The notes under the pieces: generated by a model
The model's input: only the letters and a program-made list of their open reading frames with translations
What the model was told of the DNA's origin: nothing
The model's database searches: none
Position numbers and translations under genes: made by a program
In this document: one piece after another, positions 22,798-27,503 of the stretch
Position numbering within the stretch: the first letter of the stretch is position 1
How the letters are laid out: each line of letters starts with the position of its first letter
DNA from: a virus
IMG/VR virus record: IMGVR_UViG_3300030104_004696
Span: 1-58,128 of that record
Length of the DNA stretch: 58,128 nt
Strand: one strand, 5' to 3'

Positions 22798-23268
22798 CTA
22801 TTCTATTTCAGTTAATACTCCGTTAATTTCCTCATACTGATAATCTCCAGTACATTCCCATTCAGTATAATATACTCCATAGTGATTGTATCCTATCTCT
22901 AATATATCATCATCATTTTTACTTTTCCAATTAGCAAATTCTACTCCACCATTTGCTATTTCCTCATCCATAAGTTCTTTGATATGTTTTACTGCATCTA
23001 CCTTATTCTTAAAGTATTCATCAGTTTGTTCATCTATCCATCCCTCATTCATTCCTTTGTGAGTGATAGAACATTTTCTTGCGTATTTCATATTGTGTGT
23101 TATGTACTCAGACGCCCATTCTAAAACTTGCTTAGATGATACTTCAGCATCTATGGTATCAGATAACTCATCATTCCATACTGATAAGTATAAATTGTCT
23201 TTATAGATTCTTGCATCTATTCCGTACTTACTTTTAAGTACCTCTACTGCTTTTTCGCTTGTTGTCAT
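22798..23268 (-). CDS. Hypothetical protein downstream of hammerhead A
   Basis: 156 residues. An N-terminal SEKAVEVLKSKYGIDARIYKD segment looks alpha/beta; the C-terminal part is acidic and aromatic (..GYNHYGVYYTEWECTGDYQYEEI..). Soluble, no recognised motif. The ribozyme at 23286-23339 would leave this message with a 23-nt leader starting AGUAUU and a 5'-hydroxyl. The leader ends AACACACA directly before ATG. Confidence 0.6.
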   Translation of the reverse strand: MTTSEKAVEVLKSKYGIDARIYKDNLYLSVWNDELSDTIDAEVSSKQVLEWASEYITHNMKYARKCSITHKGMNEGWIDEQTDEYFKNKVDAVKHIKELMDEEIANGGVEFANWKSKNDDDILEIGYNHYGVYYTEWECTGDYQYEEINGVLTEIE

Positions 23269-23285: not shown

Positions 23286-23339
23286 AATACTGACACTACT
23301 TGCGTAGTGTTTCGTCCCATTAGGACTCATCAGAGTATT
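23286..23339 (-). ncRNA. Type I hammerhead ribozyme A
   Basis: Read on the minus strand from 23339: stem I 5' strand AAUACU; core CUGAUGA (23333-23327); stem II GUCC-UAAUG-GGAC (23326-23314); GAAA (23313-23310); stem III ACACUAC-GCAA-GUAGUGU (7 bp, GNRA loop, 23310-23293); cleavage nucleotide C23292 in GUC; stem I 3' strand AGUAUU (23291-23286). All invariant core bases of the hammerhead are present and all three helices pair. The element begins 1 base after the stop codon of the lipoprotein gene, and the cut falls between 23292 and 23291, 23 nt before the next ATG. Confidence 0.92.
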
Positions 23340-23465
23340 TTATCTGTATGCAGGACAGGAAGTAGCGTTCTTTTTAGCATAGCTTGATGCATATGGACAA
23401 TAGCTACTTGCACAACTTGATAATAAGAATGTTAATACTACCGCTACTAAAATTGACTTTTTCAT
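23340..23465 (-). CDS. 41-residue lipoprotein between two hammerheads
   Basis: Start chosen at 23465 (MKKSILVAVVLTFLLSSC), because the upstream in-frame ATG at 23534 would translate through ribozyme B. The lipobox LLSSC gives a 23-residue mature lipopeptide rich in Ser, Tyr, Ala with further cysteines. Its message would be freed by ribozymes at both ends as a 198-nt RNA (23489-23292). The leader is AGUAUAAAACAACACACAAAACAA before ATG. Short Cys/Tyr/Ser-rich lipopeptides of this type occur in Bacteroidota; function unknown. Confidence 0.7.
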   Translation of the reverse strand: MKKSILVAVVLTFLLSSCASSYCPYASSYAKKNATSCPAYR

Positions 23466-23484
23466 TTGTTTTGTGTGTTGTTTT

Positions 23485-23542
23485 ATACTGACTATCTCAT
23501 TTGAGATAGTTTCGTTGCATTTCAGCAGACTCATCAGAGTAT
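23485..23542 (-). ncRNA. Type I hammerhead ribozyme B
   Basis: On the minus strand from 23542: stem I AUACU; core CUGAUGA (23537-23531); stem II GU(C)UGC / GCAAC with one bulged C and loop UGAAAU (23530-23514); GAAA (23513-23510); stem III ACUAUCUC-AAAU-GAGAUAGU (8 bp); cleavage base C23490 in GUC; stem I AGUAU (23489-23485). Helices II and III differ from ribozyme A but remain paired, which is independent support for both. It begins 1 base after the stop of the 55-residue gene, and the cut leaves 24 nt before the lipoprotein ATG. Confidence 0.9.
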
Positions 23543-23710
23543 TTATTTGACCTCAACAAACTCAAAGTTTTTAAATTTGTCTCGTAGTTTTTGATTAATC
23601 TCTTTTATCAATTCAGACTCTTTAATCTTATAAAATGCGATTAACTCTTTGTTGTCTTTTGGGTTTTGGTTTAAACTCTTTATGAGTCTTTTTAATTCAA
23701 TTATATTCAT
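23543..23710 (-). CDS. Small helical protein upstream of hammerhead B
   Basis: 55 residues (ATG 23710, TAA 23543), charged and helical (MNIIELKRLIKSLNQNPKDN...). Its stop codon abuts hammerhead B, so after cleavage its mRNA would end in the ribozyme stem III hairpin with a 2',3'-cyclic phosphate. No family recognised. Confidence 0.55.
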   Translation of the reverse strand: MNIIELKRLIKSLNQNPKDNKELIAFYKIKESELIKEINQKLRDKFKNFEFVEVK

Positions 23711-25602: not shown

Positions 25603-27183
25603 ATGAAAGACCAAGGATACATTCCAAAAGACCTGTCTTTTGATGACAAGGCAAGAACCAAATTAATATCGGGAATCTCAAAAATCTCTAACGCAGTTAA
25701 ATCAACTCTGGGCCCCCAGGGCCAGACTGTATTGATTGAGTCAACACAGCATACTCAAGGGTTAACAGTAACTAAAGATGGTGTGACTGTCGCTAAGTCA
25801 ATCTTTCTTTTAGATCCTGTAGAAAACTTAGCGGTTAGAATGATGAAGCAGGCTTCTGAGAAAACTGCTAATACTGCAGGAGATGGAACAACTACAGCGA
25901 TTGTTTTAACGGAGGCTTTAGTAAAGGCTGGACAAAAGTATATTAAAGAAGGAGAGAATACTATTAAGGTAGTAAGGGCTATAAGAGAAGCAGGTGATAA
26001 GTTATTAGAAAGAATAAAAGAAGAATCGGTTGATGTAACTGATGATATGTTAAAAGATATAGCAACAATCTCTGCAAACAATGACAACGAGATTGGTGAG
26101 ATTATAGCTAAGGCTTATAAAGAAGTAGGGCGTGATGGCATAGTAACAGTTGAAAGATCTCAAACTGATGAGACCTATGCTGAGGTTACTAATGGTATTA
26201 AAGTAGATAGAGGATGGACTTCTCCTATGTTTATTAATGACCAAAGAAAAGATGAGTGTATATATGAGGATGTTAAAGTTTTAATATGTGATAGTGAAAT
26301 AAATAATATATTACAAATTGAGAATGTTCTAAAACCTATTATCAATGCAGGAGAAAAATTACTTATCATTGGAGACTGCTCAGGTAATGTGATTAATACT
26401 TTAGCCGCTAACGTACAAAGAAACGGACTGAAGTTCTGTAATATTGTCCCTCCATCATTTGGATATAAGACTCACGAGTTAATGCAAGATATTGCGTTTG
26501 CAGTAGGTGCTAAATACTTTTCAGAGAAAACAGGAGACGATTTATCCCTAATTAGAATGGAAGACTTAGGTCATGCAGATAAAATTATTGTAGGAAAAGA
26601 TAATACTATCATTATAAAAAACGGTGAGATTACTAAAGAGACTATAGCAAGAGTAGACGAGCTAAGAGACCAGCAAGAAAGACTAACAGCTAAACATGAG
26701 AAAGATTTTATTAATGAGAGAATCGCTTCTTTAGTTGGAGGAATAGGATGTATACAGGTAGGAGCTACTTCTGATATAGAGCAAAAAGAAAAATTTGACA
26801 GAGTCGATGACTCTGTCTGTGCAGTGCGTTCCGCACTACAGGAAGGAATAGTTGCTGGAGGAGGATTATTATTAAACACCTTATCTAAAGAATTAAAAGG
26901 AAAGAGTACTGCTGATAAGATTCTTAAAGAAACATTACAAGCTCCCTTACAGCAAATACTTGTAAACGCAGGATTAAATAAAAAAGATATCTATGAAGAA
27001 GATCTTAAAAAGAACTTCGGATATAATGTTGTTACAGGTAAATATGGAGATATGTTTGAAATGGGAGTTGTGGATCCAGCTAAGGTTACTATACAAGCTT
27101 TATCCAACGCTATTAGTGTAGCAACAACTATACTTACTACCAACGCTATAATAACTCACGCAAGAATAGGACAAGATGATTAA
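25603..27183 (+). CDS. groEL: Phage-encoded chaperonin GroEL
   Basis: 526 residues (bacterial GroEL about 540-550). Conserved motifs are present: STLGPQG (34-40), AGDGTTTA (92-99, Asp94 = E. coli Asp87), ISANND (156-161), VDDSVCAVRSALQEGIVAGGG (Asp403 = E. coli Asp398, AGGG 418-421). Glu46 stands where E. coli has Asp52, with a two-residue longer loop after it, and the C-terminal GGM repeat tail is absent. It is preceded by its own promoter and followed by groES. It would fold phage proteins in the host cytoplasm, perhaps the capsid or the giant virion proteins. The apical domain is diverged from host-like sequences, which argues for long phage residence. Confidence 0.97.
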   Translation: MKDQGYIPKDLSFDDKARTKLISGISKISNAVKSTLGPQGQTVLIESTQHTQGLTVTKDGVTVAKSIFLLDPVENLAVRMMKQASEKTANTAGDGTTTAIVLTEALVKAGQKYIKEGENTIKVVRAIREAGDKLLERIKEESVDVTDDMLKDIATISANNDNEIGEIIAKAYKEVGRDGIVTVERSQTDETYAEVTNGIKVDRGWTSPMFINDQRKDECIYEDVKVLICDSEINNILQIENVLKPIINAGEKLLIIGDCSGNVINTLAANVQRNGLKFCNIVPPSFGYKTHELMQDIAFAVGAKYFSEKTGDDLSLIRMEDLGHADKIIVGKDNTIIIKNGEITKETIARVDELRDQQERLTAKHEKDFINERIASLVGGIGCIQVGATSDIEQKEKFDRVDDSVCAVRSALQEGIVAGGGLLLNTLSKELKGKSTADKILKETLQAPLQQILVNAGLNKKDIYEEDLKKNFGYNVVTGKYGDMFEMGVVDPAKVTIQALSNAISVATTILTTNAIITHARIGQDD

Positions 27184-27245
27184 GTTTATATACTGGCTTT
27201 TAGGAATAGGAGAAATAAATAATATAGAATCAAACATTAAACAAT

Positions 27246-27503
27246 ATGAAACCAATAGGGAAGTATATAGTAATAAAAAAAATTGAGGAAGAATTAAAGA
27301 CTGAATCAGGATTATTACTTTCTGCTCAAGACGCTTCGAGCTTTAGATATAAAAAAGGAGAAGTAATTAAGGAGGGTACTGATGTTAAAGTCATCAATAA
27401 GGGAGATGTAATTTATTATGACGGAGCTGCAGGGCATCAAATGCTTATTAAGGATAATCCTTATACGGTTATTCAGGAGAGAGATGTCGTTGTTGTTTTA
27501 TAA
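27246..27503 (+). CDS. groES: Phage-encoded co-chaperonin GroES
   Basis: 85 residues, a little shorter than bacterial GroES (about 95). It starts with the conserved PIGKYIVIKK strand, has a mobile-loop segment (about 17-33) with the hydrophobic LLL tripeptide (23-25) that should bind GroEL, and a KGDVIYYDG strand (52-60). The gene follows groEL by 62 bp, an order reversed from most bacterial groES-groEL operons. Its end overlaps the converging regulator gene by 35 bp. Confidence 0.9.
   Translation: MKPIGKYIVIKKIEEELKTESGLLLSAQDASSFRYKKGEVIKEGTDVKVINKGDVIYYDGAAGHQMLIKDNPYTVIQERDVVVVL

Follow-up and report, generated by a model that had tools for sequence, protein, structure and literature searches.

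Predicted type I hammerhead ribozymes at gene junctions of a flavobacterial podovirus operon and of a Flavobacteriales chromosomal operon

Introduction

What do two hammerhead-like RNAs do between consecutive early genes of a phage? We addressed this question in a 58,128-nt phage sequence (IMG/VR record IMGVR_UViG_3300030104_004696, here called the window), in which two such elements lie on the minus strand in the gaps among three consecutive leftward genes. Clustered hammerheads that flank single prophage genes were described in 2011, and processing of long phage RNAs into mRNAs of gene length was proposed as their role (PMC3088659). Cleavage in vitro was shown for the natural tandems of A. 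tumefaciens, A. caulinodans, and C. scindens, and in E. coli as well for the A. tumefaciens set; no Bacteroidetes example appears in the main text of that study (PMC3088659). A 2017 review stressed the link to phages and regarded the role of prokaryotic hammerheads as still open (PMC6155905).

Results

The window contains two elements with the complete hammerhead architecture. We found hammerhead A at positions 23286 to 23339 and hammerhead B at 23485 to 23542, both type I and both on the minus strand. A pattern of the core plus stem I matched the window twice, and 0.00 matches were expected from shuffled windows. This agrees with a first-pass annotation of the window, which had described two tandem minus-strand hammerheads with CUGAUGA, stems, and a GUC site. 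The sequence of A is AAUACU-CUGAUGA-GUCC(UAAUG)GGAC-GAA-ACACUAC(GCAA)GUAGUGU-C^AGUAUU, where ^ marks the predicted cut. Its stem I is formed by 23339-23334 and 23291-23286, the core by 23333-23327, stem II by 23326-23323 and 23317-23314, the GAA by 23313-23311, and stem III by 23310-23304 and 23299-23293 around a GCAA loop, and C17 is 23292. The sequence of B is AUACU-CUGAUGA-GU[C]UGC(UGAAAU)GCAAC-GAA-ACUAUCUC(AAAU)GAGAUAGU-C^AGUAU. Here, stem I is formed by 23542-23538 and 23489-23485, the CUGAUGA core by 23537-23531, stem II by 23530-23525 and 23518-23514 with a loop of UGAAAU, the GAA by 23513-23511, and stem III by 23510-23503 and 23498-23491, and C17 is 23490. Stem II of B carries a bulged C that was absent from the first-pass annotation and that recurs among relatives.

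By the NUH rule for hammerheads, cleavage is predicted on the minus strand between C23292 and A23291 in A (23291..23292) and between C23490 and A23489 in B (23489..23490). The 5' ends predicted earlier, 23291 and 23489, coincide with this layout. Both elements have the full core, closed helices II and III, the open helix I that defines the type I topology, and a GUC cleavage triplet. The class is described by CUGANGA...GAA...A-UH, with N10.1-N11.1, N1.1-N2.1, and A15.1-U16.1 paired (PMC3088659), and we found every one of these positions in both A and B. The hammerhead is the minimum-energy structure of A (z, -3.3). It is not the minimum-energy fold of B, for which a competing ACUC/GAGU hairpin is better by 2.6 kcal/mol when secondary structure alone is considered.

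An Rfam scan of the window gave no match at the gathering level. Against Hammerhead_1 (RF00163; gathering threshold, 34), A scored 24.6 bits and thus has the features of the class while falling below the threshold of the family. Against RAGATH-1-hammerhead (RF03152; gathering threshold, 56.3), B scored 31.2 bits and A 22.7, and relatives reached at most 34.9 bits. Among dozens of copies (20 phage loci and 15 bacterial loci), none reached an Rfam threshold. A shares with Hammerhead_1 the core, three helices, open helix I, GUC triplet, and a GUCC/GGAC stem II, but the elements here have an AU-rich stem I of 5 to 6 bp and a long stem III, and the known loop-loop contact is not evident. We identified no clear stem I loop for this contact, which speeds natural hammerheads. 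RAGATH-1 has the same core and open helix I and is the best sub-threshold match for B and several relatives, but its upstream helix aligns weakly, and to coding sequence. The first-pass annotation had held that sub-threshold scores would speak against hammerheads. Such scores did occur, yet the covariation described below supports the identity of the elements, and we attribute the scores to Rfam models that miss this whole lineage. Given the strong covariation, we set aside Rfam gathering scans, negative at every locus tried, as the arbiter.

We built a family covariance model, R1, from 18 phage copies that include A but not B. R1 scored A, as a training member, at 74.1 bits and B, which was not in training, at 45.5 bits. 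We found no third hammerhead in the window, where nothing besides A and B exceeded 12.9 bits (R1, filters off). Scanning IMG/VR with the stem I and core pattern gave 52 stretches, and R1 identified 48 phage records with one to four copies each, clustered and on the same strand. In an alignment of 65 distinct phage copies, which was fitted to R1, 97.3% of helix cells are standard-paired and 15 of 17 pairs are doubly compensated. When the partner strands in this alignment were slid as a control, pairing was only 26 to 42%; with a shift of one base, it was below 30%. A smaller MAFFT alignment, not fitted to the model, has 98.7% of cells paired, with both sides changed in 10 of 17 pairs.

Covariation is seen in all three helices. 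In the first set, the search pattern itself accounts for part of the UACU/AGUA conservation in stem I, an effect offset by covariance-model matches with other stem I sequences. Unrelated stem I sequences still pair (UACA/UGUA, GGCAA/UUGUC, GAUUAA/UUAAUC, and GUAUUA/UAAUAC), and stem sequences vary among copies that precede different genes. Position 7 of CUGANGA is free in hammerheads, and it is the only core position that varies here (U in 61, C in 3, and A in 2 of 66 copies). Loop II is mostly UNAAU or UGAAAU. An unpaired A flanks the two ends of stem I in 61/65 and 56/65 copies. These features would be compatible with a tertiary contact between stem I and loop II, but the A-rich surroundings of the element and its adjoining stop codon confound the counts. 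One record has two hammerheads back to back (L092, 1455-1555), the second apparently decayed in stem III. Around 10 pattern matches in other bacterial genomes (e.g., L206, L212, and L224) lacked matching helices and were set aside as chance matches, as was a match in L030. We concluded that, judged by structure and covariation, A and B are genuine type I hammerhead ribozymes with predicted cleavage. The covariation across the family also supports their earlier assignment as type I hammerheads in the early operon.

The elements sit between a stop codon and a start codon. A 55-aa gene upstream of B (23543..23710, minus strand) ends in a UAA stop that directly abuts stem I of B. Between B and A lies a lipoprotein-like gene of 41 aa (23340..23465, minus strand) with a signal peptide and the lipobox LSSC; its start codon follows the B cut by 24 nt, and its UAA stop lies directly against stem I of A. 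The 156-aa gene downstream of A (22798..23268, minus strand), which has a weak sub-threshold hint of DUF5376, has its start codon 23 nt beyond the A cut. No ribozyme precedes a 45%-identical homologue of this last gene. Within B, an AUG in the core is in frame with the lipoprotein gene (23340-23534), so that uncut RNA might give an N-terminally extended product. Elsewhere in the window, the rightward gene block opens with GroEL and GroES genes (25603-27503).

The same arrangement recurs in the family and is its most informative feature. The upstream stop codon ends at most 2 nt from stem I in 34/66 phage copies (1.6% for random positions), and an open frame starts 19 to 35 nt past the cut in 59/66 (11% for random positions). 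Nearly all post-cut leaders are predicted to be unstructured. One subset starts with a single short 5' hairpin on the cleaved RNA, the 5-bp AGUAUC-AUAA-GAUACC, ahead of unrelated genes; this 3' flank is common to L010, L013, L015, L027, L029, L032, L048, and L099. We rejected a tie to one particular downstream gene in phages, where the downstream genes are diverse.

We propose that the hammerheads probably punctuate the leftward early operon of this marine flavobacterial podovirus, cutting its polycistronic mRNA co-transcriptionally into single-gene units. As the RNA emerges, B and then A would fold and cut after C23490 and C23292. The upstream piece would terminate in a 2',3'-cyclic phosphate, its 3' end formed by the stem III hairpin, the 198-nt middle piece would carry the lipoprotein gene only, and the downstream mRNA would begin with a 5'-OH end 23 nt before the 156-aa gene. 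Each downstream gene would thereby gain its own short, unstructured, A-rich leader. Bacterial RNA-decay enzymes that depend on a 5' phosphate or on a free 3' tail should be slowed by both ends. Slowed decay would give neighboring genes separate lifetimes and translation rates, and mRNA stability and dosage would be uncoupled without a host nuclease or a new promoter. From the structure, covariation, intergenic position, recurrence, and same-strand orientation of the elements, we infer cleavage in vivo and altered stability and dosage.

Two rival readings, ribosome gating and ligation, might also be refinements of this scheme. In the first, cutting would be gated by ribosomes. With the stop codon directly against stem I, a ribosome terminating there would cover the 5' strand of stem I, and also part of the core, so that cutting would be confined to RNA on which translation does not reach the end of the upstream gene. 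The element would then report translation or ribosome availability. The close spacing of stop and stem I in about half of the phage copies, and within a few nucleotides in most chromosomal ones, is consistent with this. However, tight packing of stop, ribozyme, and start is expected in compact phage genomes in any case, and several copies have the stop 7 to 35 nt away. We regard gating as a tentative reading that is unlikely, if plausible.

The tandem arrangement raises the possibility of joining as well as cutting. With AUACU/AGUAU common to stem I of both copies, A offers a stem I strand to which the excised piece can pair through its 5' end, and reverse ligation could circularize the 198-nt B-A piece or splice the outer pieces. 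The authors of the 2011 study considered ligation in bacterial tandems, searched for its products, and found none (PMC3088659). In related phages, stem I is incompatible in about half of the second copies, and many records have a single copy. We consider such joining improbable, and we rejected circularization as the conserved purpose and main reading because so many second copies have incompatible stem I strands.

Separation of neighboring genes remains our preferred reading, and the hammerheads extend to cultured phages. A relative of the window terminase (48 to 95% identity) is carried by 35 of the 48 records, and the others are mostly fragments. Among cultured phages, the relatives are Flavobacterium elemoviruses and phages of Cellulophaga and Tenacibaculum. 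We found unannotated hammerheads in Elemovirus elemoA 13-1A and in Cellulophaga phages phi18:3 and phi19:3; these copies have a different stem I or stem III with near-complete pairing, and stem III of elemoA has one mismatch. Most of the elemovirus records listed below have an opposite-strand CDS, probably spurious, annotated over the ribozyme. Phages phi13:2 and phi46:3 keep the downstream gene and lack the hammerhead. At one junction with near-identical flanks, phi18:3 (L202) has a hammerhead, whereas phi13:2 (L236) has a small extra gene, gp053. At one hammerhead of the elemoviruses (L200, L201, and L239 to L242), the stem II alleles GACU/AGUC and GGUU/AACC are paired, and the mixed GACU/AACC of elemoD 13-5B and elemoF 6-3D leaves stem II broken. 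Among five long relatives chosen by terminase alone (at least 48 kb, outside the pattern set), one has a clear copy, and the presence of the element is thus patchy. Four of the more distant long relatives had no match to R1, a model that may miss divergent copies. Since copies come and go, being broken, absent, or without an R1 match, the device is not essential.

The same pattern also found 20 structured copies in bacterial genomes, one of them on a 1.39-Mb contig and all in contigs titled Flavobacteriales, Bacteroidetes, or Bacteroidota. Applied to 398 Flavobacteriales genomes, R1 identified 27 positives, all of 1 to 2 Mb. There is a single copy in 26 of these, and G118 has a second. In all 27, the main copy (L221, 5186-5245, and L243 to L269) has a TonB-dependent receptor gene on one side and, on the other, a small lipoprotein gene carrying a C-x2-CH motif (CHECH). 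The receptor, which ends at the junction in ...NPGRSFNINLKYEF-stop, was identified by inspection from its C terminus and one full sequence. In most genomes the stop lies a few bases before stem I, the start is usually 22 to 27 nt past the cut, and changes in stem I are compensated. The CHECH lipoprotein gene occurs in 39 genomes, which include all 27 with hammerheads. We read 5 of the other 12 and found the lipoprotein gene directly behind a receptor-like gene with no hammerhead, in 4 of them with a short spacer. We concluded that the chromosomal hammerhead is an optional insert in a conserved operon that lies outside any evident phage. Most likely, these hammerheads too cut shared mRNAs into single-gene pieces.

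Could the hammerheads be selfish or decaying mobile elements that spread through intergenic gaps with no benefit to the phage? The patchy presence, some decayed copies, and a module whose identical leader (AGUAUCAUAAGAUACC) precedes unrelated genes would fit such elements. However, we saw no shared flanking sequence or open reading frame beyond ~60 nt, stems differ even among copies in one genome, and the chromosomal copy occupies one fixed site in 27 species-level genomes with compensatory changes; we consider this reading quite unlikely. Also quite unlikely are structured elements that do not cut (RNA-end stabilizers, attenuators, or protein-binding sites with an incidental hammerhead core), for although the same kind of junction can hold a plain inverted repeat (L204), a gene (phi13:2), or a short spacer instead, conservation is highest in the single-stranded catalytic core and the helices change freely, the opposite of what a hairpin function predicts.

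Discussion

The first-pass annotation considered a head-to-tail hammerhead pair between phage genes unusual. This view is not supported, as 23 of the 48 related records carry at least two copies (two to four), and clusters flanking single prophage genes, with suggested mRNA processing, were published in 2011 (PMC3088659). The window pair therefore belongs to an already known kind, the clustered phage hammerheads. Like the earlier clusters, it places several hammerheads around single genes. Those clusters, however, are in prophages of other bacteria and surround inconstant genes (PMC3088659), whereas the family described here is found in flavobacterial podoviruses, with fixed spacing, and in a conserved nonphage chromosomal operon. 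Our literature search, whose coverage left out most subscription journals, found no report of flavobacterial hammerheads. Within this incomplete coverage, we likewise found no mention of the punctuation layout with its fixed spacing, of the conserved chromosomal operon, or of the flavobacterial phage lineage that Rfam misses. Because current Rfam thresholds hide the entire lineage, many genomes carry hammerheads unannotated.

A broader reading is that the ribozyme is a standing expression device of marine Flavobacteriales and their phages, placed exactly between stop and start, cutting operon mRNA, and gated by ribosomes. We offer this full version as speculation with a low chance of being correct. 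The family makes the role of bacterial and phage hammerheads testable through its fixed stop-start position, cultured phages, presence/absence pairs, and broken alleles. With copies in a chromosomal operon outside any evident phage, a domesticated role in gene expression becomes directly testable.
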